This document shows, in pieces, positions 17,724 through 36,750 of a stretch of 64,000 nucleotides of DNA; within the stretch, counting starts at the first letter, position 1, and each line of letters starts with the position of its first letter. The position numbers and the translations under genes are program-made. The stretch comes from Prosthecobacter sp. (GTDB taxonomy: Bacteria; Verrucomicrobiota; Verrucomicrobiia; Verrucomicrobiales; Verrucomicrobiaceae). A model generated the notes under the pieces. The model saw only the letters and a program-made list of their open reading frames with translations, did not search any database and was not told where the DNA came from. The stretch covers positions 868,001 to 932,000 of the forward strand of contig NZ_JAXMIH010000006.1 in NCBI RefSeq assembly GCF_034366625.1, given 5' to 3'.

Positions 17724-18281
17724 TCACCAGTCAGGATCGACTTCGAAGTCGTCGGCGACGTTGATCTTGTCGGTTTTGAAGCGCTGGATCGATTTCACCA
17801 TCGCGGGGCTGGTCGATTGCTCGAACCAGGAGGCAGAGCACCACGGGTAGTCCTTGGCGACTCGCACGAGGCCATGACGCACGGCGTTTCCATGCGTGTA
17901 GTTAAGACGAGCGAAATACGAGTTCGTGTGCGTGAGCTGGGTCTCGCGAAAGTTGTGCCACACCTTGCGACCCGGCGTGCCGTCGAGCTTGTTCACCCAG
18001 CCGCTGAGTTTGACGTGCAGCATGCCGAGCATGGGTTCGAGTGTGGCAGGATCTTCCGGGGACTTGGCGACGAAGTGATAGTGGTTGGAGAAGACTGCCC
18101 AGGCTTCGAGATCCCAACCATATTTGGCGGTGACAGTCAGCAGGCCACGCTGGAGCACGTCGAGCCGCTTCGCGCCATGAAAGTGATGCGCCTTGAGGTA
18201 GGTTGCTGCCGTGACGAAGTAGGTGCCACGCTCCGTAAGCCGATGAGGCGGTGCATGCGGCCAATCGATGGTCTTGGGCAT
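17724..18281 (-). CDS. RAYT-type REP-associated transposase, second family
   Basis: A 185-residue Y1_Tnp protein. SNHYHFVAKS (about residues 64-73) is the HUH metal-binding site, and NYTHGNAVRHGLV followed by YPWCSASWF is the conserved C-terminal part carrying the presumed nucleophile region. It differs clearly from the RAYT at 39-638. It is framed on both sides by the same two-hairpin unit (17549-17713 and 18331-18494), the expected arrangement for a RAYT and its REPIN. The frame is intact. It follows the biosynthetic run on the same strand, separated by the right-hand REPIN. Confidence 0.88.
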   Translation of the reverse strand: MPKTIDWPHAPPHRLTERGTYFVTAATYLKAHHFHGAKRLDVLQRGLLTVTAKYGWDLEAWAVFSNHYHFVAKSPEDPATLEPMLGMLHVKLSGWVNKLDGTPGRKVWHNFRETQLTHTNSYFARLNYTHGNAVRHGLVRVAKDYPWCSASWFEQSTSPAMVKSIQRFKTDKINVADDFEVDPDW

Positions 18282-18500: not shown

Positions 18501-19757
18501 TCACACCTTCCCCAAGATCAGCGCCACATTCGCGCCGCCGAAGCCGCTGCTGTTGCTCATGACCACGCTTGGCGCTTCATCGCATCGTTCCGTGAGAATC
18601 GAGATGCCTTCACACGCGGGATCGAGCTGCTGAATCTTGGCGGAGGCGGGCATGAAGCCTTCACGCAATGCCAGGCAGCAGATGCCAGCTTCCAAAGCGC
18701 CTGCGAGGCTCAAGCCATGGCCGGTGAGGGCTTTCGTGCTGCTGACTTTAGGCTTTGCATCGCCAGTAAACACGGATTTGAGAGCGCTCAGCTCGGCGAG
18801 ATCACCCGCAGTCGTCGCGGTGGCGTGGGCGTTGATGTAATTGACTGCGGAAGGTTCCAAGCTCGCGTCTTGGAGAGCGTTAGTCATGGCGCGGGCCAGA
18901 CCGCTGCCAGTGGGATCAGGGGCGACAACGTCGTAGCCGTCAGAGGCCTGGCCCCAGCCTTTGACCTCGGCATAAACCGTCGCGCCGCGTGCGGCGGCGT
19001 GTTCGGCGTCTTCGAGCACGAGGACAGCACCGCCGCCGGTGATGACAAAGCCGTCGCGACTCACATCAAAGGGCCTCGGAGCTAAGGCAGGATCGCTTTG
19101 TGAGCTGAGTGCACGCAGTGAAGCGAAGGGCAGAATGTTGTATGGATGACAATCTTCTGCACCGACGACGAACATGATCTTCTGCCTACCCAGGCGGATC
19201 AAATCACAGGCGCTGCCCAAGGCGTGGGAAGACGACGCACACGCACTGCTGAAGCCGACGGAAGCACCTTTGATGGCGAAACGGGCGGTGAGGTTGAGGT
19301 GCAGTGAGTTCGGCATGCCGGTGACAACCGTCGGTGCCGAAGTGCGTGCGGGTCCGCGAGTGAGGACGGATTCAATCGCCACATGCGTCAGCCAGGCTGA
19401 ACCCGCGGAAGCGCAGTAGAGGCCGGTTTGCGGAGCTGAAACGAGCGCTGGATCGAGTTTGGCATCACTGATGGCTTCTTCCATCGCGGCAACGGCATAG
19501 ACCGCATTGGGAACCATCGTTCGCAGTTCGGCGCGGCTGAATTGGACTTTCGCGGGAAAGGTCCAGTCGAGTGGATCGGCGCTAGAAAAGGAGAAGCCTT
19601 TGACTGTGCCCGCCAGTTTCACGCGATCATTCGCGGCGACGAGTTCAGGCATGACCTCGATGCCGCAGCGGCTTTCGCGCAGGCTTTCGAGCACGGCGGC
19701 GCGGTTGTTGCCGATGCTGGAGATGAAGCCGAGGCCGGTGACGACGACGCGGTTCAT
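18501..19757 (-). CDS. Beta-ketoacyl-ACP synthase (KAS I/II type)
   Basis: A 418-residue condensing enzyme. The Cys-His-His triad is visible: Cys173 in SSACASSSHAL, His311 in NAHATATTAGD (usually NxHGTxTxxGD), and His347 in TKALTGHGLSLAG with Lys342. It extends an acyl chain held on an acyl carrier protein. Its start codon overlaps the stop of the ACP gene by four bases (ATGA), so the two are translationally coupled and the ACP is the obvious partner. It is the last gene of the biosynthetic run. A dedicated starter-chain or side-chain synthase for the type III polyketide synthase product is my inference; a role in fatty acid synthesis is the alternative. Confidence 0.9.
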   Translation of the reverse strand: MNRVVVTGLGFISSIGNNRAAVLESLRESRCGIEVMPELVAANDRVKLAGTVKGFSFSSADPLDWTFPAKVQFSRAELRTMVPNAVYAVAAMEEAISDAKLDPALVSAPQTGLYCASAGSAWLTHVAIESVLTRGPARTSAPTVVTGMPNSLHLNLTARFAIKGASVGFSSACASSSHALGSACDLIRLGRQKIMFVVGAEDCHPYNILPFASLRALSSQSDPALAPRPFDVSRDGFVITGGGAVLVLEDAEHAAARGATVYAEVKGWGQASDGYDVVAPDPTGSGLARAMTNALQDASLEPSAVNYINAHATATTAGDLAELSALKSVFTGDAKPKVSSTKALTGHGLSLAGALEAGICCLALREGFMPASAKIQQLDPACEGISILTERCDEAPSVVMSNSSGFGGANVALILGKV

Positions 19758-20107
19758 GCGGCGAGCTTGGTGCGCAAAAAGGCCTTCAACTGACCCAGCG
19801 TGCGGATGTCATTCATCTCCTGGTTGGCCACGGTGATGCCCAGCACTTCCTCAGCGGTCATGACGACTTCGATCATGCCAAAGGAATCCATGCCGATGTC
19901 TTCAATCAATCGCGCTTCATCGGTAGCAGCCGCCACGCCTTCCGGTTTGGGATTCGCCGCGTCACGCTCCAGCACACCGAGGATGATGGCGGGCAGTTCA
20001 TCCTGATTCCGCGATTCTTCAAATCGCAACGCGGCTGCCACCGTCGCGTCGCTGCAACGTTTGAGCGACTTCTCGATCTCCTGCTTTCGTTCTTCGGTGA
20101 TGGGCAT
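19754..20107 (-). CDS. Acyl carrier protein
   Basis: A 117-residue carrier protein, longer than a housekeeping ACP (about 78). The C-terminal half is the ACP fold: LIEDIGMDSFGMIEVVMTAEEVLGI carries the phosphopantetheine attachment serine, Ser75, in GMDSF in place of the common GxDSL. The first 40 residues form an additional charged helical region (EERKQEIEKSLKRCSD). ATG 20107 is preferred to the upstream start. It overlaps the ketosynthase by four bases and follows the methyltransferase by 29 bases, so it is a pathway-specific carrier. Confidence 0.88.
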   Translation of the reverse strand: MPITEERKQEIEKSLKRCSDATVAAALRFEESRNQDELPAIILGVLERDAANPKPEGVAAATDEARLIEDIGMDSFGMIEVVMTAEEVLGITVANQEMNDIRTLGQLKAFLRTKLAA

Positions 20108-20136
20108 GGCGTTGTTTAATCGGTGCTGCCGCTGGT

Positions 20137-20985
20137 TCAAACCTTGTCCGCGCTGAAGACGCCGTAGCGTTGCACGCCGAGCTCATAGGCCAGCCAGATG
20201 CGGAAGAGGGTGAGGGCGAAGATGCGGTTGGGGTTTTTCGAGCTGAACAAGAAGCGGCGGTAGTGCGGCTTGGTAAACAGGCCCTTCACCGTGCGCCAGG
20301 CACACAGCGGCCAGGTGCGTTTCACTTGTTTGGCGTAGTCTTTGAACTGGTAGTTCACAAAGCCTGCGGCCTCAGTGGCGGCGCGGAATTCGCTTTCCGG
20401 CCTGACACCGGCGATTTGGGTCTCGCGCGTGATGGCGTCGATGAGATGACGTTTGGCCCAAGGACCGGGATGTTCGCAGGACATCCAAGCAGCGGCAACG
20501 AGACGGCCACCGGGTTTCATCACGCGATAGCACTCGCGGAAAAAGGTGGGCAGGTCCGGCATGTGTTCGAGACTTTCGACGGTTTGCACGACATCGAAGC
20601 GATTGTCGGGAAGCTGGTTTTCATACCAATCACGCACCATGAAGGTCGTTTTGCCAGGCACGTTGTTGTTGGCCTGCGCGTAGGCGAGCTGCACGGACGA
20701 AATGGTCATGCCGGTGACGTTTGCGCCGTAGCGCTGCGCGAGAATTTTTGCCGTGGCGCCGTAGCCGCAGCCGATGTCACAGACATCGGTGTTTTGACCC
20801 GTGTGGCCGAGTTCGGCGACCATTTTGACCAGATTCTCCGCCGCCTCGGTGTCGGTTTCCTTGCCGGTGAACCAAACGCCGTGGTGGACGTGCTCGCCCC
20901 AGATCTCGCGGTAAAATTGGTCGAGGTCGTCGTAGTGCGAAGCAGCGCCGTCGATGGTGGGGGTGTATTCGAGAGTCGTGGTCAT
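20137..20985 (-). CDS. SAM-dependent methyltransferase (UbiE/cyclopropane synthase-like)
   Basis: A 282-residue class I methyltransferase. Motif I is VCDIGCGYGATAKILA (about residues 68-83), followed by GMTISSVQLAYA and FDVVQTVESLEHM. The pattern resembles tocopherol/sarcosine-type and cyclopropane-synthase-like C- or O-methyltransferases. GEHVHHGVWFTGKET near residue 30-45 is also typical of that group. Three bases separate it from the FAD monooxygenase gene. In this setting it most likely methylates the aromatic polyketide product; the position is unknown. Confidence 0.85.
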   Translation of the reverse strand: MTTTLEYTPTIDGAASHYDDLDQFYREIWGEHVHHGVWFTGKETDTEAAENLVKMVAELGHTGQNTDVCDIGCGYGATAKILAQRYGANVTGMTISSVQLAYAQANNNVPGKTTFMVRDWYENQLPDNRFDVVQTVESLEHMPDLPTFFRECYRVMKPGGRLVAAAWMSCEHPGPWAKRHLIDAITRETQIAGVRPESEFRAATEAAGFVNYQFKDYAKQVKRTWPLCAWRTVKGLFTKPHYRRFLFSSKNPNRIFALTLFRIWLAYELGVQRYGVFSADKV

Positions 20986-20988
20986 GAA

Positions 20989-22158
20989 TCAAACGGTGCG
21001 CGGTTTCAAACTGGCCTGCGGGACGCGGGCGAGCGTGTTGAATGGGATGGTGAGCATGGCGTAGAACGGTCCCATGCGGCGTGCGATGGGGCCCTGGCAA
21101 AGCAGGAACTTCAAAATGGCATCGCGCAGGATCGAGAGTTTTCTTCCGCGCCAGGTGCCAAGCCACATGCCCCATTCAGCGCGGAAGATGGCGGTCTTCG
21201 CGGCCTTGCGGCGGAAGCGGCTGTAAGCGGGCAGCAGCGAGCATGGATCGCCATGACTGAGCACCTCGGCGAGGAACTCCGCATCGGCAAAGCCGGTGTT
21301 CATGCCCTGGCCGCCGATGGGGCTCATGCCGTGCGCGGCATCGCCGCAGAGGATGACGCGGCCATCGTAGTAGCGGTCGCAATTGAAGCGGCGCGGTGTG
21401 AAGACGCTTTCATTGACTTGATCCGCCACCGGCACGTCGAGGCCGGTGCGCAGGCGGGTGAGTTCGCTGACGAGACCTTTCGGCGGCTGATCGAGGCGCG
21501 TGTCGGTTTGCACGATCCAGCGTCTTTGACCGCCGGGCAGCGGAAACGATTCCACAGAACCCGTGGAGGTGAAAAAGAGGTGCGCTTCTTCACCGAATCC
21601 AGTGCGGTCAATGAAGTCGCCCATGAGAAAGTGGAGGTCATAGGCATGTGCGGGCGCCTTCATGCCGATCCACTCACGCACACGGCTGCGGCTGCCGTCG
21701 CACGCGATGACGTAACGAGCGGTGAGCTCACGATCACCGTCACGCACGACGCAGTGATCGTCGGACTGCCTCACCTCGCTGACTTCGCAGCCGGTTTCGA
21801 TGAATTCAGCGCCGAGATGCTTTTGCAGAATGGCAATCGTCGTCACCTGTGGGAGCGCGAGGATGAAGCGATGCTCGTCCGGGATGTCGCGGAACGTCAT
21901 GCAGCCGAGCAGGCCGCTCTGGCCATGCACGAAGCAGTCCCGCACCTTCAACCCGGCATCAATGAACTCGGAAGTCAGCCCAAGCTTGTTCAAGATATGC
22001 AACGAAGGCGGCGTGATGCCGATGGCGGCGGAGTGCGGGATGGGTTGCGTGCGTTTTTCCAGCACGCGGATGCGCAGGCCCTGTTTTTTGAGCAAGCAGG
22101 CCAGCAGCAGGCCCACTGGGCCGCCACCGACGATGATCACATCAAAATCCGTCTTCAT
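20989..22158 (-). CDS. FAD-dependent aromatic monooxygenase (PHBH/UbiH family)
   Basis: A 389-residue flavoprotein hydroxylase. The dinucleotide fold GGGPVG (residues 11-16), the DG motif CDGSRSRVR and the GD motif GDAAHGMSPIGGQGMNTG are all present. These enzymes hydroxylate phenols or quinone precursors with NAD(P)H and oxygen. The start overlaps the stop of the type III polyketide synthase gene by four bases (ATGA). The combination polyketide synthase, monooxygenase and methyltransferase matches the logic of Streptomyces srsABC, which makes alkylresorcinol-derived quinones. The basic tail (SLKPRTV) is unremarkable. Confidence 0.9.
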   Translation of the reverse strand: MKTDFDVIIVGGGPVGLLLACLLKKQGLRIRVLEKRTQPIPHSAAIGITPPSLHILNKLGLTSEFIDAGLKVRDCFVHGQSGLLGCMTFRDIPDEHRFILALPQVTTIAILQKHLGAEFIETGCEVSEVRQSDDHCVVRDGDRELTARYVIACDGSRSRVREWIGMKAPAHAYDLHFLMGDFIDRTGFGEEAHLFFTSTGSVESFPLPGGQRRWIVQTDTRLDQPPKGLVSELTRLRTGLDVPVADQVNESVFTPRRFNCDRYYDGRVILCGDAAHGMSPIGGQGMNTGFADAEFLAEVLSHGDPCSLLPAYSRFRRKAAKTAIFRAEWGMWLGTWRGRKLSILRDAILKFLLCQGPIARRMGPFYAMLTIPFNTLARVPQASLKPRTV

Positions 22159-23300
22159 GCTCGGATCGTGGTTTTCGATTTCTTCGGCGCGGTGATCGCC
22201 GCGCCGCAGCGCTCCAGCACCGCCGTTTCCACCGTCAATCCGGGACCGAAGGCGATGGCGCAGGTCGTGGCACGGTCGGTTTCGGCCTCTTCGAGCATGC
22301 CTTTGAGCACAAACATGACCGTGGGGCTGCTCATGTTGCCGTAATCACGCAGCACGTCGCGGGACATCTCCAGCGCCTCGGCAGGCAGTTCGAGATGCTG
22401 CTCCACCTGATCGAGAATCGCCCGCCCGCCGGGATGCACGGCCCATTCGTCGATGTCGCCGATCTGCATCTCACGTTTGGCGAGGATGCCGCCGAGCATC
22501 TCACGGATGTTGCTGCCGATGAGATCAGGCACATAAGCGGAGAGCACCATGTTGAAACCGTTGTCGCCGATGTCCCAGGCCATGTGCGCCTCGCTGGACG
22601 GCACAAGCGCCGAGTGGAAGCCCTGCACGCGATAGTAAGGCCGGTCGCCTGCCGGTTTGCGCGCGCTCATGATCGCCGCCGCCGCACCATCGGCGAAGAG
22701 CGCGTTCGCCACGATGCTTTCGGGCTTGTCACTGACTTGCAGATGCAGCGAGCAAAGTTCCAGGCACATCACGAGCACCACCGCGTTTGGATTCGCCTCA
22801 CAAAACTGCGCCGCCATGCGCATGGCGGGAAAAGCCGCGTAGCAGCCCATGAAGCCGATGGTGTAGCGCTCCACGCTCTCGTTCAGCCCGAGGTCGCGGA
22901 TGATGTGATAATCCGGTCCTGGATTCGCAAAGCCCGTGCAGGAGGCGAAGACAATGTGCGTGATGTCTTCTTTATTGAACTGTGGGCACTCGGCGAGGGT
23001 CTTGCGGGCGAGCTTCACCGCGAGTTCGCGTGAGGCTTTGGCATAAAGCGTGTTCCGCTGGCCGGTGGTGGGCGAATTGATAGTTCCGTCAGGCAGCGTG
23101 CGGAAGAGTTCGCCGTCGTCCTTCAGGAAATCATCGCTCGCGCTGTAGCGTGTGTCGATGCCGGTGCGCTCGTAGATCATCTCGACCATGCGTTTGGCGC
23201 GCGGTTCGCTGACCCAGCCTTTCATCCGGGAACAGGCGAATTCATTGCTGTAAATGTACGGCGGTGTGTCCGTCGCGATGTGATGAATGTAAGCGGGCAT
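22155..23300 (-). CDS. Type III polyketide synthase (chalcone/stilbene synthase family)
   Basis: A 381-residue enzyme with the complete triad: Cys153 in GFMGCYAAF, His289 in WAVHPGGRAI and Asn322 in YGNMSSPT. It condenses an acyl starter with malonyl units without a carrier protein and cyclises the product. Bacterial members near FAD hydroxylases and methyltransferases usually make long-chain alkylresorcinols or alkylpyrones. It begins five bases after the YceI gene stop and overlaps the next gene by four bases, so it is central to the operon. The C-terminal GPGLTVETAVLE is canonical. The exact product cannot be deduced. Confidence 0.93.
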   Translation of the reverse strand: MPAYIHHIATDTPPYIYSNEFACSRMKGWVSEPRAKRMVEMIYERTGIDTRYSASDDFLKDDGELFRTLPDGTINSPTTGQRNTLYAKASRELAVKLARKTLAECPQFNKEDITHIVFASCTGFANPGPDYHIIRDLGLNESVERYTIGFMGCYAAFPAMRMAAQFCEANPNAVVLVMCLELCSLHLQVSDKPESIVANALFADGAAAAIMSARKPAGDRPYYRVQGFHSALVPSSEAHMAWDIGDNGFNMVLSAYVPDLIGSNIREMLGGILAKREMQIGDIDEWAVHPGGRAILDQVEQHLELPAEALEMSRDVLRDYGNMSSPTVMFVLKGMLEEAETDRATTCAIAFGPGLTVETAVLERCGAAITAPKKSKTTIRA

Positions 23301-23305
23301 GAAGA

Positions 23306-23890
23306 TCAGTTCTGAGTGAGTGTAACGGAGGCATGAACCTTGATGCCATCCCCCACTTTGATGAATAACAGCACCGTGGGGACGCTAATGCCGCTGGCTT
23401 TCAGCGAGACGGGGAAGTCGAGATCAAAGGTGGCCTTTTTGCCGGCGAGTTTCCAGTTCGAGATCGTTCCGGTGACGTTTTGCGGCTTGCCGAGCAGATT
23501 CAGCTCAATGGGTAGTTTGGTAGGAGTGCTTGCGGCGGCAATCTCACTGAACTTTGCGTCAATCTTGCCAACGATGAGCGGATGCGCGTCCACTTGCATC
23601 GCCTTGCGCATGTTGGCATCGCGTTTCGGTTCGGCGGTGTCCATGTTTGCAGCTTTGACGGTCACTTCGGCCTTTACGCGTTGGGGTCTGTCACCATCCA
23701 TGGTGACATCGGCCTTGAATGGCTCCACCGCGACCTTGCCGCCCCAGTCATGCAGCGTGGAGGTGCCGTCAAAGGAGATGCGGGCGGTGCCGCTCCATGT
23801 TTCGGCATGGAGGAAGGAGCCGAAGACAACGAGGAGAAGTAATAGCGGTGTTTTCAAAGTCGAGGGGTGGCTGAGGATGGCAACGTACAC
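23306..23890 (-). CDS. YceI-family periplasmic lipid-binding protein
   Basis: A 194-residue exported protein of the YceI family. After a hydrophobic leader (LLLLLVVFGSFLHA) come FDGTSTLHDWGGKV, VKAANMDT..KRDANMRKAM and LNLLGKPQNVTGTI, which trace the lipocalin-like barrel. YceI proteins bind polyisoprenoid or other long-chain lipids. GTG 23890 is given as the start; TTG 23857 would give a tidier signal peptide and remove the 37-base overlap with the preceding gene. Placement directly before the polyketide synthase suggests that it carries the hydrophobic product or its precursor; this is inferred. Confidence 0.87.
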   Translation of the reverse strand: MYVAILSHPSTLKTPLLLLLVVFGSFLHAETWSGTARISFDGTSTLHDWGGKVAVEPFKADVTMDGDRPQRVKAEVTVKAANMDTAEPKRDANMRKAMQVDAHPLIVGKIDAKFSEIAAASTPTKLPIELNLLGKPQNVTGTISNWKLAGKKATFDLDFPVSLKASGISVPTVLLFIKVGDGIKVHASVTLTQN

Positions 23891-24216
23891 TTCTTGTTAG
23901 CATGGATAAGGCTGATTTGGGTGACAAAATCAGGACCGAAGAGCGGTCGATGGAGCTTCACCTGGATTCTCATTCCAGATGATAACGCCATTGGGCTGCT
24001 GTCGGACGAATCATTCCAGAGTTTGGCCCAGGCCGTATAAACGAAGCGTCTGACTGCGCCGCCATCTTGTGCCAAGACGATCTCCCGACTGGCGTGATCG
24101 ACTTTTTGAACGACGCCGGTCATGGTGGTGCCCATCGGCCGTCGTGCGTGGGCCGCATGCGGCATCAGGGCGATGACGAGGGCCAGCATGAGAAGCTGTA
24201 GTGTGGGCGCTTTCAT
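23854..24216 (-). CDS. Small exported OB-like protein, possibly CusF-like
   Basis: A 120-residue protein with signal peptide (MKAPTLQLLMLALVIALMPHAAHA). The mature part, GVVQKVDHASREIVLAQDGG...FVYTAWAKLW...GMRIQVKL...DFVTQISL, has the strand pattern of a small OB barrel and loosely resembles CusF-type chaperones that accompany HME pumps; the Met ligands of CusF are not evident. The ATG overlaps the stop of the RND pump gene (ATGA), and its 3' end overlaps the YceI reading frame by 37 bases if the GTG start of the latter is used. It is thus embedded in the run. Function tentative. Confidence 0.6.
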   Translation of the reverse strand: MKAPTLQLLMLALVIALMPHAAHARRPMGTTMTGVVQKVDHASREIVLAQDGGAVRRFVYTAWAKLWNDSSDSSPMALSSGMRIQVKLHRPLFGPDFVTQISLIHANKKCTLPSSATPRL

Positions 24217-27200
24217 ATCGCGGGTTGGGCGTCGGGAATCATCTGGGCATCGTCGCAGTGCGCAGGATCGCGTTGTCTTTGGGGTCGTCCGAGCAGCCAG
24301 CGATACAGCACTGGCAGCAGGAACAGTGTGAGGAAGGTGCTGCTGACGATTCCGCCGATGACGACGGTGGCGAGCGGGCGCTGGACTTCGGCGCCAGCGC
24401 CTTCGCTGATGGCCATGGGGATGAAGCCGAGGCTGGCGACCATGGCGGTCATCAAAACGGGGCGCAGACGTTGCAGGCTGCCTTCTGTGACGGCTTGCTC
24501 GGCATCGCGGCCTTCGTTGCGGAGCTGGTTGAAGCAACTGATGAGCACCACGCCATTGAGCACGGCCACGCCGCACAGCGCGATGAAGCCGATGGCGGCG
24601 CTGATGCTGAAGGGCAGGTCGCGCATCCACAGGGCAAGCACGCCGCCGGTGATGGCGAGCGGAATGCCGGTGTAGATGATAAGCGTCTGCGTGACGCTTT
24701 TGAAAGTGGCGTGGATGAGCACAAAGATGAGCACCAGCGCGAGCGGCACGACGATCATGAGCCGTGCGCGGGCTTCTTGCAGATGCTCAAACTGGCCGCC
24801 GAAATCGACGCGGTAGCCTTCGGGCATCTGGATGCTCGCGGCGATCATTTCGCGGGCCGCGTTGACGTAGGCTTCGGAATCGGTGCCACCGGCGAGATCG
24901 ACATTGAGTCCGACACGACGATGACCGTCTTCACGGCCAATCGCATCGACCTGCGGCACTTCCACGAAGTCGGCGAGGCGACCGAGAGTGATGAGACCGC
25001 CGTCCTGAGTGCGCACGGGCAGCGCTTTCATGACCTCGGGGTTGTTGCGCAGGGACTCTGGCAGGCGCACGACGATGGCGCGGCGGCGATTGTTTTCGAT
25101 CAACATGCCTGCGGTGTGTCCAGCCATCGCGGTGGTGATGGCGGCGTTCACTTCGGCGGCTTCGACGTTGTATTTGAGCATGGAGGCGCGGTCCACGCGG
25201 ATCTCGAGCACCGGCACGCGGCCCTGGCTTTCAAACTCGGCGTTGTCCGTGCCTGCGATGCCTTCGAGGATCGTTTTGACCTCTCCGGCGATCTTTTCCA
25301 TCGTGTCGTAGTCATCGCCAAAGATGCGTACGGCCAGATCGGCGCGGGAGCCTTCGAGCATCTCATTGAAACGCATCTGGATCGGCTGCGCGAAGTCGTA
25401 ATCCTGCTCCGGCACCTCCTTGGCGAGTTCTTCGCGCACCAGCTCGGCCAGGCGGTCACGATTCACCGGTTTGCCGTTTTCTTGGCGCCATTCGGACTGC
25501 GGTTTGTAGAAGACGTAGAGGTCGTACTCGCCGGGAGACATCGGATCAGTCGCCACCTCGCTGGTGCCGACACGGGCGAAGGTGCGTGTGACTTCCGGCA
25601 CTTTAGTTATGAGATACTGCTGTGTTTTGATGCAGCGATTCAGCGAGGTCTTGAGGCTGGTGTTGGCGGGTTGATAGACCATGGCCGTCCAGGAGCCTTC
25701 ATTGAGCGTGGGCACGAATTCCTGCTTCAAACTCATGAACAGCATCACCGTGCCGATGAGCAGCACCGCGACGCCACCGACCACGCCCCAGCGCGACTTC
25801 CAGGCGATGCTCAAAGACGGCGCGTAGGCCGCCTTGACCCAGCGCATGAGAAAATTGTCCTTCTCACTGATGTTGCCTCGAAGCAGCAAGGAGCAGAGCG
25901 CGGGCATGAGCGTGAGCGCGAGAATCAAAGCGCCGCCGAGTGCCAGCATGACCGTGATGGCCATCGGGTGGAACATTTTCCCTTCGATGCCGGTGAGCGC
26001 GAGGATGGGCAGATAAACGAGCGTGATGATCAGCACGCCGAAGAACATGGGGCTGCCGACTTGCTCGCCCGCCTCACGCACGGCGTTCATGCGCTCCTTG
26101 GCGGTCAGTTTGCGTCCCAGCTCGTGCTGCTTCTCGCCGAGCACGCGGACGATGTTTTCGACCATCACGACGGCACCGTCGATGATGAGGCCGAAGTCCA
26201 CGGCTCCGAGTGACATCAGATTTCCAGACACTCCGCCGAAGGTCATGCCGATGAGGGCAAACAAGAACGAAAGCGGGATGGCGAGCGCCACGATGAGCGC
26301 CGCGCGCCAGTTTCCGAGCAGGACGAGCAGCACGACGATGACGAGGATGGCTCCTTCAAAGAGATTGTGCTTCACGGTGTCGATGGTGCGGTCCACGACC
26401 TCGCTGCGGGCATACTGGATGCGGATTTCGAGGCTGGCGGGCAGCTTCTTTTGCAGCTCGCCGAGCTTTTCTTCGACGCGCTTGCTGATGATGCGGCTGT
26501 TTTCGCCGACGAGCATCATCACGGTACCGAGCACGGCTTCCTCGCCGTTTTCGACGGCGCAACCGGTGCGCACGTTGCTGCCGATGCCGACTTCCGCGAG
26601 ATCCTTCACGCGCAGCGGCTCGATGCCTGCGGCGAATTTGACGGGCAGATTCGCGATGTCCTCCGCGCTTGTGACTTTGCTCACGCCACGAATCAGCACG
26701 CGGTCATTGCCACGCTCAATGACTCCGCCGCCGGCATTATCGACGTTTTGGCCGATGATCTCGGCCAGTTCGCCGAAAGTCATGCCTGCGTTCACAAGCG
26801 ACTCGGGTTTGGGCAGGATGACGAGCTGGCGTTCGTAGCCGCCGCTGCTGTTCACCTCCGCGACGCCGGGCACCGTGCGCAAAAAAGGCTTCACGATGTA
26901 GTCGTGCGCCTCGCGCAGGTCCATGAGCTGACGCTCACGCGTTTGTTGGCGCTGCGGCGCGTCCTTTTTGTAGTCGAGCGTGTAATAGACGATCTCGCCC
27001 AGGCCCGTGCTGATGGGAGACATCTGCGGGCTGAGTCCGGCGGGCAGATCGACCTGCACAAGACGTTCACTCACGAGCTGGCGCGCACGAAACAGGTCAA
27101 AGCCATCGCGAAACACGAGCGTGACCTGCGAGAGGCCGGACTTGGTGAGCGAGCGAAATTCCTCCACGCCCTGAATGCCCGCGAGCGCGAGTTCCAGCGG

Positions 27201-27401
27201 ATAGGTGACGAGTTTTTCCGTCTCCTCCGGCGCGAGGCCGGGCACGGCGGTGTTGATCTGCACCTGCGTGTTGGTGATGTCCGGCACCGCATCCACCGGG
27301 AGGTGCATGGCGGAGAAAACACCGGCTGCGAGCAGCAGCAGCGAGCCCATGATGACCAGGAAGCGGTTCCTGAGCGAGAAGTCGAGGATGGCGTTGATCA
27401 T
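24213..27401 (-). CDS. HME-type RND efflux pump (CzcA/CusA-like)
   Basis: A 1062-residue, full-length RND permease with about twelve membrane segments. GAVDFGLIIDGAVVMVEN in TM4 is the signature of heavy-metal-efflux RND proteins, and VPDITNTQVQINT after TM1 is also typical. Such pumps drive export of cations, or other substrates, with the proton gradient in a tripartite complex. It lies 12 bases downstream of an InlB-repeat gene, which itself overlaps a TolC-like gene. No membrane fusion (adaptor) protein gene is present in the run, although one is normally found between channel and pump. Downstream genes are coupled to it. Metal export is the family default; product export is the contextual alternative. 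Confidence 0.92.
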   Translation of the reverse strand: MINAILDFSLRNRFLVIMGSLLLLAAGVFSAMHLPVDAVPDITNTQVQINTAVPGLAPEETEKLVTYPLELALAGIQGVEEFRSLTKSGLSQVTLVFRDGFDLFRARQLVSERLVQVDLPAGLSPQMSPISTGLGEIVYYTLDYKKDAPQRQQTRERQLMDLREAHDYIVKPFLRTVPGVAEVNSSGGYERQLVILPKPESLVNAGMTFGELAEIIGQNVDNAGGGVIERGNDRVLIRGVSKVTSAEDIANLPVKFAAGIEPLRVKDLAEVGIGSNVRTGCAVENGEEAVLGTVMMLVGENSRIISKRVEEKLGELQKKLPASLEIRIQYARSEVVDRTIDTVKHNLFEGAILVIVVLLVLLGNWRAALIVALAIPLSFLFALIGMTFGGVSGNLMSLGAVDFGLIIDGAVVMVENIVRVLGEKQHELGRKLTAKERMNAVREAGEQVGSPMFFGVLIITLVYLPILALTGIEGKMFHPMAITVMLALGGALILALTLMPALCSLLLRGNISEKDNFLMRWVKAAYAPSLSIAWKSRWGVVGGVAVLLIGTVMLFMSLKQEFVPTLNEGSWTAMVYQPANTSLKTSLNRCIKTQQYLITKVPEVTRTFARVGTSEVATDPMSPGEYDLYVFYKPQSEWRQENGKPVNRDRLAELVREELAKEVPEQDYDFAQPIQMRFNEMLEGSRADLAVRIFGDDYDTMEKIAGEVKTILEGIAGTDNAEFESQGRVPVLEIRVDRASMLKYNVEAAEVNAAITTAMAGHTAGMLIENNRRRAIVVRLPESLRNNPEVMKALPVRTQDGGLITLGRLADFVEVPQVDAIGREDGHRRVGLNVDLAGGTDSEAYVNAAREMIAASIQMPEGYRVDFGGQFEHLQEARARLMIVVPLALVLIFVLIHATFKSVTQTLIIYTGIPLAITGGVLALWMRDLPFSISAAIGFIALCGVAVLNGVVLISCFNQLRNEGRDAEQAVTEGSLQRLRPVLMTAMVASLGFIPMAISEGAGAEVQRPLATVVIGGIVSSTFLTLFLLPVLYRWLLGRPQRQRDPAHCDDAQMIPDAQPAI

Positions 27402-27413
27402 GGGTTGCTGAAA

Positions 27414-29876
27414 TTAGGGATGCACAAGGCGGAAGAACCGGCTGCCAGTTGGACTGATGACGGAGACTTGGTTTTGCCCGCCCGTGGCGACTACAGGCAG
27501 TGTCGAGTCCACCCAGCTTCCGGGACTGAGATCAGGGCTCTCTTGCAAGACCCAGCCGGTGGCGGATGCAGGCCATGCGAAATCGAGAGTGCCAGGCGTG
27601 GTGGTCGTGATGCCGACGATGGGCACAAAGTTCGCGATGAGGGTGCGATTGGCCGACGAGGTAAAGGAGAAACTGCTGCCGCTGCTCACGATGACGCCGT
27701 TCTCAGTCCAGTTTGTGAATTGATAGCCTGTCGAAGGCGCGGCGAGCAGTGTGACCACGCCGCCTGTCGCATAACCACCGCCGCCGCTGACGCTGCCGCC
27801 AGGTGTGAAGGACGAGTCCGTCGTCACGGTGAACCCGACGGCGAAGTTCGCCAGCAGGGTGCGCTGGTTCAGAAGTGTGAAGCTATAGGCCGGTGTGGTG
27901 CTGACGATGTTGCCGGCTTCGGTCCAGTTGAGGAACACATAGCCCGGTTTCGCACTCGCAGTGGCGGTGACGCTGGTGCCGATGAGATAAGTGCTGCCAC
28001 CCGCGACGGTACCCATTGTGATGGATGAACTCGTCAGCGCGAGCTGATACGTCGGCTGGAAGTTGGCGACGAGTGTGTGGTTCGTGCTCGCAGAGAAGGA
28101 ATACAATGCGGACGAACTCGCGATCATGCCGCCTTCGGTCCAGTTCACGAAGGCGTAACCGGCATTCGCCGTGGCGGAGAGATTGACGACGGCATCGAGC
28201 GCAAAGGTGCCTGCGCCGCTGATGCTGCCGCCATTCGCCGAAGATGAAGTCGCAGCGATGGAGTAGCTGGTGGGGACATCCGCCGAGAGCGTGATCGCGA
28301 GATCGCCCGTGCCGCTGTAGTAGCTGTTTCCCATGCGGCGATAGTGCGCATTGTTGCCGCCAGCGCCGGTCGCATTGCCCCAGGTGAGCGGGTAGCCATA
28401 CTGCGAGGCTTCGATTTGAACCCAATAACCAACGCCTCCCGTGGCGAGGAACGAAGTCGGCAGTGTCACGGAGTAATCATACATCTGCACGCCGCCGACC
28501 AGGCCGGCGGCAGTCTCGCTCGCGTTGCTGCTGATGGTGTATTTTTTGAGGACGGGATTCGCGAGATCGGGATAGAAGCCGTTGGCCGTAGAGGCGTAGA
28601 TTTTGATGATGAACTCCACCACCGGATTGGCCGCCTGATTGTTGCCGATGTAACCACCACTCCAGTGCAGATGCGAAATGTCCGCAGTGGTGGCGAGCGT
28701 GAACTTTTCAAAGCGATACTCCATGCCATCGACGTTCCCGTCCGGCAGCATGTAGGACGAGAGCAGCAGCGTGCCGGAGGTCGTCGGCGGCTGCGAAAAG
28801 ACGACGCCAAGGTTCGATGCCGAGGACGTGAAGTTGGCGACCAGATCCCGATCTCCCGCTGCGGTGAAGGTGTAGGCCGCGCTCACGCTCACGGGGACGC
28901 CGTTTTCGGTCCAGTTGACGAACGTGTAGTTCGCCGAAGCCACCGCTTCGACGGTGACATTGCTGCCATTCACAAAACTGCCGCCGCCATCCGTGGTGCC
29001 GCCGTTGAGCGGCGATGAGGCGGTCGTGATCAACGATCCGGTCGAAAAATTCGCCACCAAGGTGCGATCTCCTGTGACAGTGAAGGTGTAGCCCGGATTC
29101 GTGCTGACCACGGTGCCGTTTTCCGTCCAGTTCACGAAGGCATGGCCCGCATTCGGCGTGGCGATGAGCGGTGCCGCCGAGTTTTGCGGATACAGGCCCG
29201 CATTCGTGATCGTGCCGCTGCCGATGGGGGATTCGGTCGCTGCGATGGTGTAAGTCGGCCCATCGCTGGTGACGATGCTGAACGCCGCATCGCCTGAGAT
29301 GAATTGGAAATAGAAGTCCGCCTGGCCTGCGATGCGCCGGAAATACGATCCGTTGCCCGTGCCCGCCGCGAAGCCCCAATAGGGCAGGCCATTGGCAAAC
29401 TCGGCCTCGATCTGCACCCAGTAGAGCTTTCCCGCCTGCGCCTGAAACACCGTGGGCAGCACGAAGTGGTAATCATACATCGGCGTACCTCCAAACACCC
29501 CGACGCTGGTCTCACCGGCCTTGTTTCCCGTGTCATAGGCCACTAGCGTCGCTGGCGTGCCTGGATAACCGGGACCGAGATGCGGCTGTGAGAGCCCGGG
29601 CGTGGATTCATAGATCGACACGCGGAAGTTCACGATGTCACCACCCCAGTAAGCCATTTGCGGATCGTAGCCGCCGCGCCAGCGAATCTCCGTCACCGCC
29701 TGCGCTGTGGGAACGCTGAAGGAATCCCACACGAACTGATCGTAGTCGGTGCCGTTCGGCTGATAGCGCGATGACATGCGCAGCGCTCCGCTGCCGTCAT
29801 GCGGCTGCTCAAACACCACGCCTGCCCGTGCGCCAAGCGCGGACAGAAGCAGGGTGATGTAGAGGAACGGCTTCAT
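27414..29876 (-). CDS. Exported InlB-repeat protein in the channel-pump operon
   Basis: An 820-residue exported protein (signal peptide 1-18). Two related beta-sandwich-like domains (about 19-205 and 357-535; both contain YWVQIEA) are each followed by repeats of about 70 residues of the InlB B-repeat (Flg_new) type. I count five, each with GY-FVNWTENG and R-LVANF. The C-terminus (WVLQESPDLSPGSW...SRFFRLVHP) is a module shared with the protein at 32473-35364. Its ATG overlaps the stop of the TolC-like gene (TAATG). It occupies the place where a periplasmic adaptor gene would be expected. A surface or periplasmic structural role is likely; direct involvement in export is inference. Confidence 0.82.
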   Translation of the reverse strand: MKPFLYITLLLSALGARAGVVFEQPHDGSGALRMSSRYQPNGTDYDQFVWDSFSVPTAQAVTEIRWRGGYDPQMAYWGGDIVNFRVSIYESTPGLSQPHLGPGYPGTPATLVAYDTGNKAGETSVGVFGGTPMYDYHFVLPTVFQAQAGKLYWVQIEAEFANGLPYWGFAAGTGNGSYFRRIAGQADFYFQFISGDAAFSIVTSDGPTYTIAATESPIGSGTITNAGLYPQNSAAPLIATPNAGHAFVNWTENGTVVSTNPGYTFTVTGDRTLVANFSTGSLITTASSPLNGGTTDGGGSFVNGSNVTVEAVASANYTFVNWTENGVPVSVSAAYTFTAAGDRDLVANFTSSASNLGVVFSQPPTTSGTLLLSSYMLPDGNVDGMEYRFEKFTLATTADISHLHWSGGYIGNNQAANPVVEFIIKIYASTANGFYPDLANPVLKKYTISSNASETAAGLVGGVQMYDYSVTLPTSFLATGGVGYWVQIEASQYGYPLTWGNATGAGGNNAHYRRMGNSYYSGTGDLAITLSADVPTSYSIAATSSSANGGSISGAGTFALDAVVNLSATANAGYAFVNWTEGGMIASSSALYSFSASTNHTLVANFQPTYQLALTSSSITMGTVAGGSTYLIGTSVTATASAKPGYVFLNWTEAGNIVSTTPAYSFTLLNQRTLLANFAVGFTVTTDSSFTPGGSVSGGGGYATGGVVTLLAAPSTGYQFTNWTENGVIVSSGSSFSFTSSANRTLIANFVPIVGITTTTPGTLDFAWPASATGWVLQESPDLSPGSWVDSTLPVVATGGQNQVSVISPTGSRFFRLVHP

Positions 29877-31153
29877 TAGCGTTGTCCGATTTCCATGCGA
29901 CTCAACTCTGTGCCCATGGGCTGCCCGGTGAGGCGCTCGATCTCCATGCGGTGCCTCCAGGCGTTGCGGCGGGACTCGATGAGTGAGTCCATGGCATCGA
30001 GATAACCGCGCTGCATTTCGACATAGGTCGCGGCAGGCACGGCACCGAGGCGGTAGTGACGATCGGCCTCGGCGGCGGCATCGCTGAACTGTTTTTCACT
30101 CTCAGGACGCCAGCGTGACAATGCGTCGAGTTCGGCGAGATAGGCGGAGCGTTCGACCGCGAGATCGCGCTCCAGATCGCGCAAGGTGGCCAGGAGCAGT
30201 GCCTCGGCCTGCTGCGTGCGTGCCTCCTCGGCGGCGATGTTGCCTTTGTTCTTGTTCCAAAGCGGCAGCGGGATGGAAACGACGAAACCGCCTTCGATTT
30301 GCGTGCCACCGGCGTGCTGTCCGGCCATGTAAGGGCCGAAGGTGATGTTTCCCCAACGGTCGGATTTGGTGAGGTCGATCTTGAGGCCCTGCTTGGCGAC
30401 TTGGAGACGCTTTTGCTGGAGATCAAAATTTGAGCGTGCGGCCTGCTGCTTGAGCGACTCGAGAGGCGGCACGGTGGGGAAGGAGGTGAAGACGCCGCTG
30501 AGCCGAATCGGCTGATCGGGGCCACGTCCGCAGAGCACGACGAGTGTGGTGGTGGCCTCGCGGACTTGCTTCGAGGCATCGGTCAAAGTGCGGTCGCTGG
30601 TGAGAAGAGTGGCCTCCAGGATGCGACGTTCGAGCAAGGCGCTGACAGAGCCGGTGTCACGCTGCACGAGCACTTCGATGAGCGATTCCAAGCGCTCGCG
30701 CACGGAGCGTGCGGCATCTTCTTTGCGCTTGAGCAGCAGCACATCGCCTGCACGTGCACGAACTTCGTTGGCGAGCTGGGATTTGAACTGCTTAAGGCCC
30801 AGCTCGGCGAGCGTGATGTCACGATCTGCGATGGCTTTCCGCAGCGACATGCGGCCGGGAAAGTCGAAGACCTGCAAAATGCTCGCACGCCACACGAGGC
30901 CCTCTTTGGCCTGGGCGAGGCTCATGCCGCCGAGTTCGGTGCTGAGTTCTGGATTGGCGAGCTGACCGGCGGTTTGACGACCACCGCGCGCGGCGGCGAT
31001 CTCCGCCTCGTAGAAGCGGACTTCGGGGTTCTTTTGGAGAGCTTCAACGACGAGGTCGCTGCTGGTGACAGCGGTGGAATCACGTGCTGTCAGCGAGTTT
31101 GCGCCACCTGCGAGCAGGACGGCAGAGAAGAGGAGAGAAGAGGAAAGTTTCAT
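29876..31153 (-). CDS. TolC/CzcC-like outer-membrane efflux protein
   Basis: A 425-residue outer-membrane factor. A signal peptide (MKLSSSLLFSAVLLAGGANSLTA) precedes two copies of the OEP domain, visible as long amphipathic helices (VEALQKNPEVRFYEAEIAAARGG, then LESLKQQAARSNFDLQQKRL) and the ending MQRGYLDAMDSLIESRRN. It belongs to the trimeric channel family that connects RND pumps to the outside. The longer in-frame start is rejected in favour of the signal peptide. It is the first gene of the tightly packed run; the His-rich small protein gene lies 169 bases upstream. Confidence 0.88.
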   Translation of the reverse strand: MKLSSSLLFSAVLLAGGANSLTARDSTAVTSSDLVVEALQKNPEVRFYEAEIAAARGGRQTAGQLANPELSTELGGMSLAQAKEGLVWRASILQVFDFPGRMSLRKAIADRDITLAELGLKQFKSQLANEVRARAGDVLLLKRKEDAARSVRERLESLIEVLVQRDTGSVSALLERRILEATLLTSDRTLTDASKQVREATTTLVVLCGRGPDQPIRLSGVFTSFPTVPPLESLKQQAARSNFDLQQKRLQVAKQGLKIDLTKSDRWGNITFGPYMAGQHAGGTQIEGGFVVSIPLPLWNKNKGNIAAEEARTQQAEALLLATLRDLERDLAVERSAYLAELDALSRWRPESEKQFSDAAAEADRHYRLGAVPAATYVEMQRGYLDAMDSLIESRRNAWRHRMEIERLTGQPMGTELSRMEIGQR

Positions 31154-31322: not shown

Positions 31323-31814
31323 TCAGATCAAAAGCCGCACCGAGGACAGCGTGGCCCCCAGGCCGGGCGTGATGGGAACATCTCTCCAAGCACGCGTTTC
31401 GCGAGACGTGTCGCGAACGGGATGCCTCGAAGAAAAAACCAGCGCCTGAGTGGCCTGGCAGTTGACTTGCGCGGCGTTTTTCACTTCCCGCTCATCTGCA
31501 TCACGCTCCGCGCGGGAGCCGGTACTGATGCAGGACGAACTCAACTCATGGGAACCGGCTTCGGAAGCCTTGCACATGCTCACAATGAACCTGGCGAGCG
31601 AGTTGCTGTGATCGTGCACCCGTGGCGTGTAGTCCGCCCGGTGATGGAGCAATGTCAGCGTGGTGCCTTGTTCAGACTGCTGCACCTGGACGGTGTGACT
31701 GCCGTCCAGCGTGGCTGCCAGAGACACCAAAGCAGGCAGCAACGAAGTTCCCGTGATGGCGTAAGCCATCAGGAGAACCAGGGCGGTGATGCGTTGATGA
31801 ATGGTGTTCTGCAT
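31323..31814 (-). CDS. Small exported protein with His-rich segment, unknown
   Basis: A 163-residue protein. The N-terminal hydrophobic stretch (ITALVLLMAYAITGTSLLPALVSLAA) is a signal peptide or anchor. A segment LLHHRADYTPRVHDHSN (about 55-71) holds four His and could bind metal. The remainder has scattered Cys (MCKASE, SSSCIST, VNCQAT). No family was recognised. It lies directly ahead of the TolC-like gene; small His-rich exported proteins are frequent companions of metal-efflux operons. A shared sequence element (31861-31884) lies upstream of its start. Confidence 0.55.
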   Translation of the reverse strand: MQNTIHQRITALVLLMAYAITGTSLLPALVSLAATLDGSHTVQVQQSEQGTTLTLLHHRADYTPRVHDHSNSLARFIVSMCKASEAGSHELSSSCISTGSRAERDADEREVKNAAQVNCQATQALVFSSRHPVRDTSRETRAWRDVPITPGLGATLSSVRLLI

Positions 31815-31860: not shown

Positions 31861-31884
31861 TTAATCATTCATTACCAAATGATC
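31861..31884 (-). promoter_or_regulatory. Short copy of shared TTTGGTAATGAA element
   Basis: On the minus strand it reads ATCATTTGGTAATGAA, then four bases, then TAATC. The intergenic copy at 37248-37271 has ATCGTTTGGTAATGAA, four bases, TAATC. It overlaps the 3' end of the sigma factor gene and lies 47 bases before the His-rich protein gene, in the same orientation relative to it as the other copy has to the response regulator gene. Confidence 0.45.
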
Positions 31885-32463
31885 ATCTTTGACCGGGTGC
31901 CCGGCTCCGCTGAGATCCTGCCGCAGCCGCTGGCAAATGCGGTGAATACTGACGGCGATGGCGCTGCGCGTGCGGCCCTGCTCTGCCGCGATGTCACTGC
32001 TGCTGCGGCCTTCGGTGTAACGAAGATGCAGAAGCTGGCGTTGCTGCTCGGGCAGGCTGGCAAGACAGGCGTTCAAGGCGGCCAGACGTTTCGGCGACAG
32101 GTCGGGCGTGGTGCCGGTCACACGAAGCTCGTGCTCCACATACTCGCGCTCGCGTCTTTTTCTCCGTGAGTCCCCCCGCATTCGTTTCTGCGCCAGATGC
32201 CAGGCGATGGTCCTGAGCCAGGGCATGAGGCGGGCACCTTGGTGGAAACGTGATCCACGTCGCAGCGCGGTCAGCAGCGCCTCATGGGCTAGATCTTCGG
32301 CATCGCAGCCGGGCAGACGTGCCTGGAGCCAGTATTGCAAGGCAGGCATGCAGCGGGCATAGAGTTTGGCAGCGGCTTCGGAGTCCGAAGTGAGGGCACG
32401 CCTGAACAACCCGGCGTTTTCGTCCGGCGGTCCAAAGGAGGAATCATCCAGCGTGGCTCTCAT
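31861..32463 (-). CDS. ECF-type RNA polymerase sigma factor
   Basis: A 200-residue sigma-70 family protein. Region 2 is seen in LYARCMPALQYWLQARLPGCDAEDLAHEALLTALRR with MPWLRTIAWHLA; region 4 in LAALNACLASLPEQQRQLLHLRYTEGRSSSDIAAEQGRTRSAIAVSIHRI, with the helix-turn-helix. It directs polymerase to a small set of stress or envelope promoters. It begins 10 bases after the stop of the large InlB-repeat gene, so the two are cotranscribed. No anti-sigma factor is evident next to it. Control of the downstream pump run is a plausible inference. Confidence 0.9.
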   Translation of the reverse strand: MRATLDDSSFGPPDENAGLFRRALTSDSEAAAKLYARCMPALQYWLQARLPGCDAEDLAHEALLTALRRGSRFHQGARLMPWLRTIAWHLAQKRMRGDSRRKRREREYVEHELRVTGTTPDLSPKRLAALNACLASLPEQQRQLLHLRYTEGRSSSDIAAEQGRTRSAIAVSIHRICQRLRQDLSGAGHPVKDDHLVMND

Positions 32464-35487: not shown

Positions 35488-36750
35488 TCAGCCGAACGAG
35501 TCGGCGAAGATATTGTCCGCCCAATGAAACATCTGCTGCATGCCGTCGGAAGTCGGCTGCGCAGCCTCGGCGAAGGATGCTTCGACACGCTTCATGGCTT
35601 TGGTGGCGGGATCGTATTGGAACGAGGCCGTGAGCCATGCGGCCGTAGTGGCGGTGATCGGGCTGAAGCAGGCAGAACTGGTGACCGGGCTCGGATCGGG
35701 TGCCTCGCCGTTGAAGGCGCGGATGATTGCGTTGGCACAGACTTTGGCCTGCGAGTTGGCCATGTGCCCGGATTTGGGCTGGCCGGTGCCCTGGGAGTCG
35801 CCGAGAATGTGGATGTCCGGATAGATGGTGGAGGCGTAGCTGAGCGGATTGACCAGCGCCCATTTGCCGGTGGGATCATTGACGAGGCCGGCGTTCGTCA
35901 CGATCTGGCCCGCACGTTGATTCGGGATGACGTTGAGAACCGCGCTCTTGAACGTGCCCTGCGAGGTCACGATGGATTTCGCCGAAGAATCGACGCTCAC
36001 GACGGCGGCGTTCGGGATGTAGGTGAGGACGCCTTTGTAGGTCTTGCTGAAGGCGTTGCCAAAGTTCACCGGCTCAGCCTGGATGGATGCATTCGCATCG
36101 AGCACGATGATTTTTGCGCCGCTCTTTTTGCGCTTCAGGTAGTCGGCCACCGAACAAGCGCGCTCATACGGCCCAGGCGGGCAGCGATAGGGCGACTTCG
36201 GGATGGTCATCACAAAAGTCTGGCCCTTCGTCATCGCGGAAAGCTGATTCTTCAGCAGCAGCGTCTGTGATCCGGCCTTCCACGCGTGCGGCGTGAGGGT
36301 GGCGTTGTAGTTGCCCGCCGGATTGATGAACTCGATGCCCGGAGCAAGCACCAGCTTGTCATACGAGTAGGCAAAGTAGTCATTGCCAATCTTGACCGTG
36401 ACTTCTCTCGCCACGGGATCGACTGAGAGGGCCTCACCTTGGGCGAAGTTCACGCCGCGTTTTGTTTGCAGGTTCGTGTAGCCGAGCTGGATGCGGCTCA
36501 TCGGCAGTGCGCCGGTGACGACCAAGTTCGAGAGGATGCAGGCGTAATGGCTGGCATCTCGATCAATCAAGGTGACGTCAATGTTGCCGCCCCAGAGCTT
36601 GAGATACTTCGCCACGGTGGCACCACCAAAGCCTCCACCGATGACGAGCACATGTGGAGCGGTCGTGGCCGCGCTGACGGCCTTGGGCAGTGCCCAGGAT
36701 GCCGAGGCGAGCCCGGCCATTTTGATAAAGTCTCTGCGATTTGGGTTCAT
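35488..36750 (-). CDS. Flavocytochrome c sulfide dehydrogenase-like flavoprotein
   Basis: A 420-residue FAD protein with a twin-arginine-type leader (NRRDFIKMAGLASASWALPKAVSA). PHVLVIGGGFGGATVAKYL is the FAD-binding fold. Cysteines in YACILSN, SPYRCPPGPYERACS and SSACFSPI, and the layout as a whole, match the FccB/sulfide:quinone reductase superfamily, whose members oxidise sulfide. SADYLKRKK-type second dinucleotide fold follows (SGAKIIVLDAN). The upstream gene encodes a c-type cytochrome, as in true FccAB pairs. Sulfide oxidation is inferred from the family; the real donor is untested. It ends at a strong terminator. Confidence 0.85.
   Translation of the reverse strand: MNPNRRDFIKMAGLASASWALPKAVSAATTAPHVLVIGGGFGGATVAKYLKLWGGNIDVTLIDRDASHYACILSNLVVTGALPMSRIQLGYTNLQTKRGVNFAQGEALSVDPVAREVTVKIGNDYFAYSYDKLVLAPGIEFINPAGNYNATLTPHAWKAGSQTLLLKNQLSAMTKGQTFVMTIPKSPYRCPPGPYERACSVADYLKRKKSGAKIIVLDANASIQAEPVNFGNAFSKTYKGVLTYIPNAAVVSVDSSAKSIVTSQGTFKSAVLNVIPNQRAGQIVTNAGLVNDPTGKWALVNPLSYASTIYPDIHILGDSQGTGQPKSGHMANSQAKVCANAIIRAFNGEAPDPSPVTSSACFSPITATTAAWLTASFQYDPATKAMKRVEASFAEAAQPTSDGMQQMFHWADNIFADSFG

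Follow-up and report, generated by a model that had tools for sequence, protein, structure and literature searches.

The window analysed here is a stretch of 64,000 nucleotides from a Prosthecobacter draft genome of 6.6 Mb (contig 6; C6:868001-932000). It contains a run of ten open reading frames (ORFs), all on the minus strand at 18501-31153, in which the genes of a type III polyketide synthase (PKS) pathway lie directly downstream of an exported YceI protein and further downstream of a channel and a permease of a resistance-nodulation-division (RND) pump of the heavy-metal efflux (HME) type (Table 1). The run is as the original prediction, made from the DNA letters alone, had described it: all ten ORFs are present and free of internal stops. 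The nine joints, from the TolC-like channel gene to the ketosynthase gene, measure -1, 12, -4, -4, 5, -4, 3, 29, and -4 nt, and where at least five joints linked by overlaps had been announced, exactly five overlap by 1 or 4 nt (ATGA three times, TTGA once, TAATG once). Nine of the ten gene names given then were correct. The tenth, for an "OB-like" exported protein, was not borne out: this small protein has no Pfam or NCBIfam match above cut-off, the other nine proteins all reaching a Pfam cut-off, and a tblastn search over all loci matches it only in its own genome and in genome G014. In simple gene calls over the window, 6 of the 8 same-strand gaps within the run are 12 nt or shorter, vs 7 of 22 outside it (13 of 30 overall); the caller missed the small exported gene, began YceI at a GTG, and miscalled frameshifted drafts. 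Genes in the same direction extend upstream of the run to 37146 and encode a sigma factor, a second InlB protein, and a flavocytochrome-like protein.

Table 1. Features of the ten-gene run and its flanks, in order of position in the window.
Feature	Positions	Strand	Evidence and remarks
Compact RND protein, 858 aa	14957-17533	+	PF00873 (AcrB profile) in three stretches; convergent with ketosynthase
Small transposase-like gene	17724-18281		Directly downstream of ketosynthase; also in L037 and L038
FabB/FabF-type ketosynthase	18501-19757	-	PF00109/PF02801; Cys173, His311, His347
Acyl carrier protein (ACP), 117 aa	19754-20107	-	PF00550; phosphopantetheine Ser75; ATGA overlap with ketosynthase
Class I S-adenosylmethionine (SAM) methyltransferase	20137-20985	-	PF08241, CMAS-like
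Flavin adenine dinucleotide (FAD) monooxygenase, class A type	20989-22158	-	PF01494, 160 bits
Type III PKS	22155-23300	-	PF00195 and PF02797 above cut-off; best PDB match PKS18
Exported YceI, polyisoprenoid-binding lipocalin fold	23306-23857	-	PF04264 above cut-off; TTG start
Small exported protein (formerly "OB-like")	23854-24216	-	ORF with ATGA/TTGA overlaps
HME-type RND permease, CzcA-like	24213-27401	-	TIGR00914, 1184.9 bits (cut-off 701.45); best PDB match ZneA
InlB-repeat exported protein in TolC/HME gap	27414-29876	-	PF18998 in five stretches, DUF7901
Outer-membrane efflux channel, CzcC-like	29876-31153	-	PF02321; NCBIfam IhpA match weak, below cut-off
Small conserved protein	31323-31814	-	Relatives precede TolC in L035 and L077
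Sigma-70-like factor	31861-32463	-	PF08281/PF04542
Flavocytochrome c sulfide dehydrogenase-like flavoprotein	35488-36750		PF21706; upstream of second InlB protein
Divergent two-component system, heavy-metal-type regulator and sensor kinase	37318-39391	+	TIGR01387/TIGR01386 best, both below cut-off

The biosynthetic enzymes keep their catalytic residues among their relatives. The PKS triad Cys153-His289-Asn322 is present in all 42 ortholog rows (41 distinct), the ketosynthase Cys-His-His triad in 22 of 22 (21 distinct), and the ACP serine in 20 of 20 (19 distinct); one genome is counted twice among the loci (L052 and L054), hence the distinct counts lower by one. The Asp of the GD motif of the FAD monooxygenase is kept in 29 of 29 rows; among solved structures, this enzyme comes closest to rifampin monooxygenases and polyketide hydroxylases. 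The methyltransferase family occurs in 16 loci and is absent from several loci that retain the PKS, the monooxygenase, the ACP, and the ketosynthase (e.g., L032, L035, L039, and L042). In two loci (L037 and L051), an insertion of two genes (86 and 137 aa) between methyltransferase and ACP splits the run; to us, it looks like a toxin-antitoxin pair.

The PKS, FAD oxidoreductase, and methyltransferase genes thus stand together in one run, as in operons of the srsABC/hidABC type, and the comparison with srsABC drawn in the original prediction is right as far as enzyme classes go. Those operons and their planctomycete counterparts, as described in PMC10896814, likewise combine a type III PKS with an FAD-dependent oxidoreductase and a methyltransferase, and they yield long-chain phenolic lipids, the kind of product that would be predicted for our locus. 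According to the same source, four of six tested planctomycete-type PKSs produced alkylresorcinols, the SrsA and FtpA pathways make alkylquinones, and electron carriers in Mycobacterium tuberculosis include polyketide quinones (the last two as cited there). Unlike srsABC/hidABC operons, the window adds an ACP and a ketosynthase, an exported YceI directly upstream, and a metal-pump module further upstream, and deeper relatives fuse a membrane domain to the monooxygenase. The locus would seem to be a phenolic-lipid operon of known type to which YceI, ACP/ketosynthase, and metal-pump neighbours have been added.

We searched for these genes in 56 genomes, among them 35 that we treat as the genus (Prosthecobacter-like, the window's own genome included), and in a class survey of 237 genomes. 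The PKS query matches 45 of the 56, and 33 of the 35 genus genomes give an E value of 1e-133 or lower; close matches come from metagenome-assembled genomes labelled Prosthecobacter, Verrucomicrobiaceae, Verrucomicrobiales, and Verrucomicrobia, and from one labelled Akkermansia. The class survey gives a PKS (E up to 1e-60) in 13 genomes, nine of them outside the genus. Two PKS clades can be told apart. The first is 82-97% identical to the window PKS, and most of its loci carry a separate monooxygenase, ACP, and ketosynthase, often with the methyltransferase; the second is 58-65% identical, and seven of its nine called monooxygenases are extended at the N-terminus by a membrane domain. G008 has a further type III PKS (L070:9517-11660, 41% identical), with a flavoprotein-like gene directly after it; its surroundings are, in our reading, unlike the genus and possibly represent contamination.

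YceI is the steadiest partner gene of this PKS. Both its PF04264 domain and its predicted structure place it in the family: the model (mean predicted local distance difference test score, pLDDT, 87.5) matches BcnB (VIA Z 18.4, root mean square deviation, rmsd, 2.2, 153 residues aligned) and TT1927b (VIA Z 18.0, rmsd 2.5, 159 aligned). A GTG at 23890 is an alternative start. We directly observe YceI adjoining the PKS in 26 of the 33 PKS-bearing genus genomes, with a gap of 2-17 nt in 26 of 32 loci (one duplicate pair). The other six comprise L036, L047, L058, and L065, where the odd gaps probably stem from gene miscalls in frameshifted drafts; L068, where YceI lies downstream of the PKS; and L072, where the genes overlap and a single ORF with monooxygenase and PKS domains stands beside YceI and DUF3570. 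Outside the genus, the class survey finds YceI with the PKS in five of nine genomes (G193, G115, G082, G088, and G141, the last with an ORF separating the two), and G037 and G040 show the same pairing; one of two further genus genomes in that survey, G161, also has YceI by its PKS. The only other PF04264 match of the window's genome lies within a 300-aa protein (L113:5655-6557) whose N-terminus looks rhodanese-like to us. Therefore, the PKS-linked copy is probably the only stand-alone exported YceI of this genome.

PMC9113575 reports that most YceI structures contain an isoprenoid, in some cases ubiquinone-8, and that lipid peroxidation is kept down by BcnA and LcoA. These are periplasmic YceI lipocalins, as here, for which a quinone ligand and an antioxidant role have been proposed; their partner is a cytochrome b561, whereas that of the window YceI is a lipid-synthesis operon (PMC9113575). 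A "lipid/isoprenoid-binding protein" gene is reported in the operon of "S. ferox" (PMC10896814), which is also the only place in the open-licence literature where we found isoprenoid binding and type III polyketide synthase together; in that literature, nothing was found that pairs YceI with a type III polyketide synthase or with alkylresorcinol.

We propose, at about even odds, that the locus makes a methylated phenolic or quinone lipid for the YceI carrier, to serve as a redox lipid of the envelope beside a metal-stress module. In this scheme, of which we infer every chemical step, ligand, and role, the PKS would condense a long acyl starter, supplied via the private ACP with the assistance of the ketosynthase, with malonyl-CoA to give a phenolic lipid of the alkylresorcinol type. 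One point in favour is Cys183 of the window PKS, at the place of PKS18 residue 205, which lines an acyl tunnel; this place holds Cys in 41 of 42 rows, and the two PKS18 entries of the PDB differ there (Cys or Phe). The FAD monooxygenase would then hydroxylate the ring and the methyltransferase methylate it, giving a methylated hydroquinone or quinone lipid, which would cross the inner membrane, bind to the co-encoded YceI in the periplasm, and act there as a redox or antioxidant lipid. The adjoining TolC/HME genes would be a metal-stress module, co-located and perhaps co-transcribed; such a module could be in keeping with a stress under which lipids are damaged. The suggestion in the original prediction that a lipid-like aromatic is passed to YceI as its carrier remains the best reading, and YceI and PKS genes are found side by side repeatedly across the class. 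For most YceI proteins, the natural ligand has been deduced indirectly; at this locus, neighbouring genes encode the biosynthesis of the likely ligand, and the ligand question therefore becomes testable. The locus is real and recurrent, and the YceI-PKS partnership is its part most worth testing.

A number of observations weigh against this scheme. First, no YceI stands beside the PKS in seven of the 33 genus genomes (G008, G011, G015, G016, G027, G030, and G032) or in G180, the second of the further genus genomes in the class survey, and in four of nine genomes outside the genus (G174, G190, G058, and G064) YceI was not found with the PKS by a profile hidden Markov model built mainly from the genus, which divergent copies could escape. 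Second, neither ACP nor ketosynthase was called at the loci of the second PKS clade. Third, gene trees disagree. These are quick FastTree runs with some partial proteins, those of G025 among them; G025 is sister to the window plus G014 in the HME tree (support 1.00) and in the YceI tree (0.93), and it pairs with G008 in the PKS tree (1.00). In G025, then, YceI tracks the pump and not the PKS; the pump plus YceI and the PKS have separate histories, with a break between YceI and PKS, and it is harder to read the whole run strictly as one pathway. Fourth, the PKS could make alkylpyrones. An alternative in which it makes alkyl-alpha-pyrones instead of resorcinols, with monooxygenase and methyltransferase decorating the pyrone and no quinone formed, seems unlikely to us, even if the nearest solved enzyme, PKS18, is a pyrone synthase. 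Against pyrones, the tested PKSs encoded with an oxidoreductase and a methyltransferase gave resorcinols (PMC10896814). Fifth, with the G. maris oxidoreductase and methyltransferase, no product beyond a methylated resorcinol was obtained, and what the oxidoreductase does was left open (PMC10896814). The quinone therefore does not follow from the gene set.

The pump half recurs with the PKS as well. An HME ortholog of at least 87% identity is found in 12 of the 56 genomes, the window's own included, among the matches listed (the next listed match is 58% identical), and in 11 of the 12, again among the matches listed, we observe that it shares contig and strand with the PKS and lies 0.6-17 kb upstream. 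It had been asked whether pump and polyketide genes travel together; they do, and the two halves are far from never adjacent. No HME paralog (up to 58% identity, among the matches listed) lies near a PKS. The exception, G015, has the HME gene on another contig than the PKS, with TolC and a two-component pair, and neither YceI nor PKS occurs in the 20 kb read at that pump locus.

What the pump moves is another matter. The original prediction implies that the TolC-like channel and the HME pump carry the polyketide lipid out to the outer membrane while YceI shuttles it through the periplasm. The linkage in 11 of 12 genomes and the short joints of the window run favour this, as does locus L068, from another family, whose PKS neighbours are an MMPL/HAE3-like RND protein, a UbiE-like methyltransferase, and YceI. 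However, the permease is of the CzcA type: it scores far above the cut-off of the CusA/CzcA heavy-metal model (Table 1) and keeps a DFGxxxxD-type acidic pair (Asp402 and Asp408). The site of ZneA is kept in part, with Glu at the place of E136 in 6 of 6 lettered rows, Asp at that of D602 in 9 of 9, and Met at that of D654 in 9 of 9 HME rows; we take these three residues to bind metal in ZneA. Moreover, an adaptor gene is missing: none of the genome's 19 rows matching the periplasmic adaptor (membrane fusion protein) model TIGR01730 falls in the window, although the two other HME genes of the genome (contig 23) have such matches within 300 bases, and in another HME pump of the genome TolC-like, adaptor, and HME genes stand in a row. 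Finally, 22 of the 33 PKS-bearing genus genomes have no HME ortholog beside the PKS among the matches listed, and in G015 the two are on different contigs. Lipid export by the pump is thus unsupported and, in our view, quite improbable. The window resembles CzcCBA/ZneA pumps in its HME permease, its CzcC-like channel, and the heavy-metal-type two-component pair nearby, unlike them lacking a CzcB-type adaptor and being linked to polyketide genes; the TolC/HME genes more likely move divalent metal than the lipid.

The linkage might also reflect the site itself. If the YceI-PKS site merely collects envelope genes, the pump and the polyketide genes would have no regulation or function in common; we consider this possible, though rather unlikely. 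The stretch upstream of YceI is indeed highly variable among loci, which hold the pump, a flavin module, InlB-repeat giants, or other genes, and the trees of pump and YceI disagree with that of the PKS in G025. A weak minus-strand terminator-like site (23948-23934) lies between the HME gene and YceI, inside the small gene; it decides nothing on where transcripts end because further such sites also fall within coding sequence. Pattern scans found 21 terminator-like sites vs 13.7 expected (sd 4.0) and 2 promoter-like sites vs 2.9 expected (sd 1.8). Yet in both PKS clades it is the same pump ortholog, and no listed HME paralog, that turns up again upstream of the PKS, and the same-strand joints of the window are short. 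Between TolC and HME, ten loci were inspected: the InlB gene occurs only in the window, four loci have no called gene (L074, L076, L077, and L116), four have an opposite-strand gene of a Uma2 cluster (L031, L035, L062, and L065; Pfam was run for L035 only), and L075 has a sigma-like ORF. For the InlB protein, we claim no orthologs elsewhere, as its matches arise from shared repeats.

In some deeper relatives, all or most genes of an ApbE/DUF3570/TlpA/DUF4266 module lie between the pump and YceI-PKS (L077 with L064, L060, L061, and L066). The fullest order read, that of G024 (L077 and L064), runs from a two-component system through an InlB giant, a sigma factor, TolC, HME, DUF3570, ApbE, TlpA, DUF4266, and two Ig-domain-type proteins to YceI, PKS, and a fused monooxygenase, with a few small genes interspersed. 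DUF3570 occurs in 14 of the 56 genomes, at 16 places (one a fragment): nine lie within 17 kb of a PKS on the same strand, five elsewhere, and two (G009 and G021) in genomes whose PKS is at a contig edge. The window lacks the flavin module, and its genome has no DUF3570 match. Clusters of ApbE, DUF3570, thioredoxin, and DUF4266 genes, the same genes as at the deeper loci, are described in PMC8238504, where ApbE flavinylates DUF3570 and the clusters are said to be of uncertain function; its main text nowhere uses the words YceI or polyketide. In the open-licence literature, ApbE and type III polyketide synthase co-occur only for a Limosilactobacillus genome. The deeper loci thus offer a candidate partner for DUF3570 flavin clusters. 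One may speculate that a polyketide quinone on YceI carries electrons for an envelope system against metal or oxidative stress, re-reduced in deeper relatives by the flavinylated DUF3570/TlpA/DUF4266 module in the role proposed for cytochrome b561 with BcnA, with the HME pump as metal-responsive partner and the flavin module lost from the window; we regard this extension as doubtful.

The membrane domain fused to clade-two monooxygenases shows, in our reading, ICMT/PEMT-like motifs, which would be a tentative assignment: its PEMT match in Pfam (E 0.008) is below cut-off, its predicted model has a pLDDT of 67.6 and no Foldseek match at E 0.001, and the comparison with ICMT (4a2n; Z 4.9, rmsd 4.1, 114 aligned) stands among unrelated rows. 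Some flanking genes recur as well. A sigma factor gene that we read as similar to that of the window precedes TolC in L077, and two-component pairs like the one upstream are divergent from TolC in L031 and L116. At the other end of the run, the small gene directly downstream of the ketosynthase has no Pfam match, and we take it to resemble a small transposase. The compact RND family beyond it is found in 15 loci, the window included, always on the strand opposite to the PKS, compared with nine loci for the HME pump in the same set.

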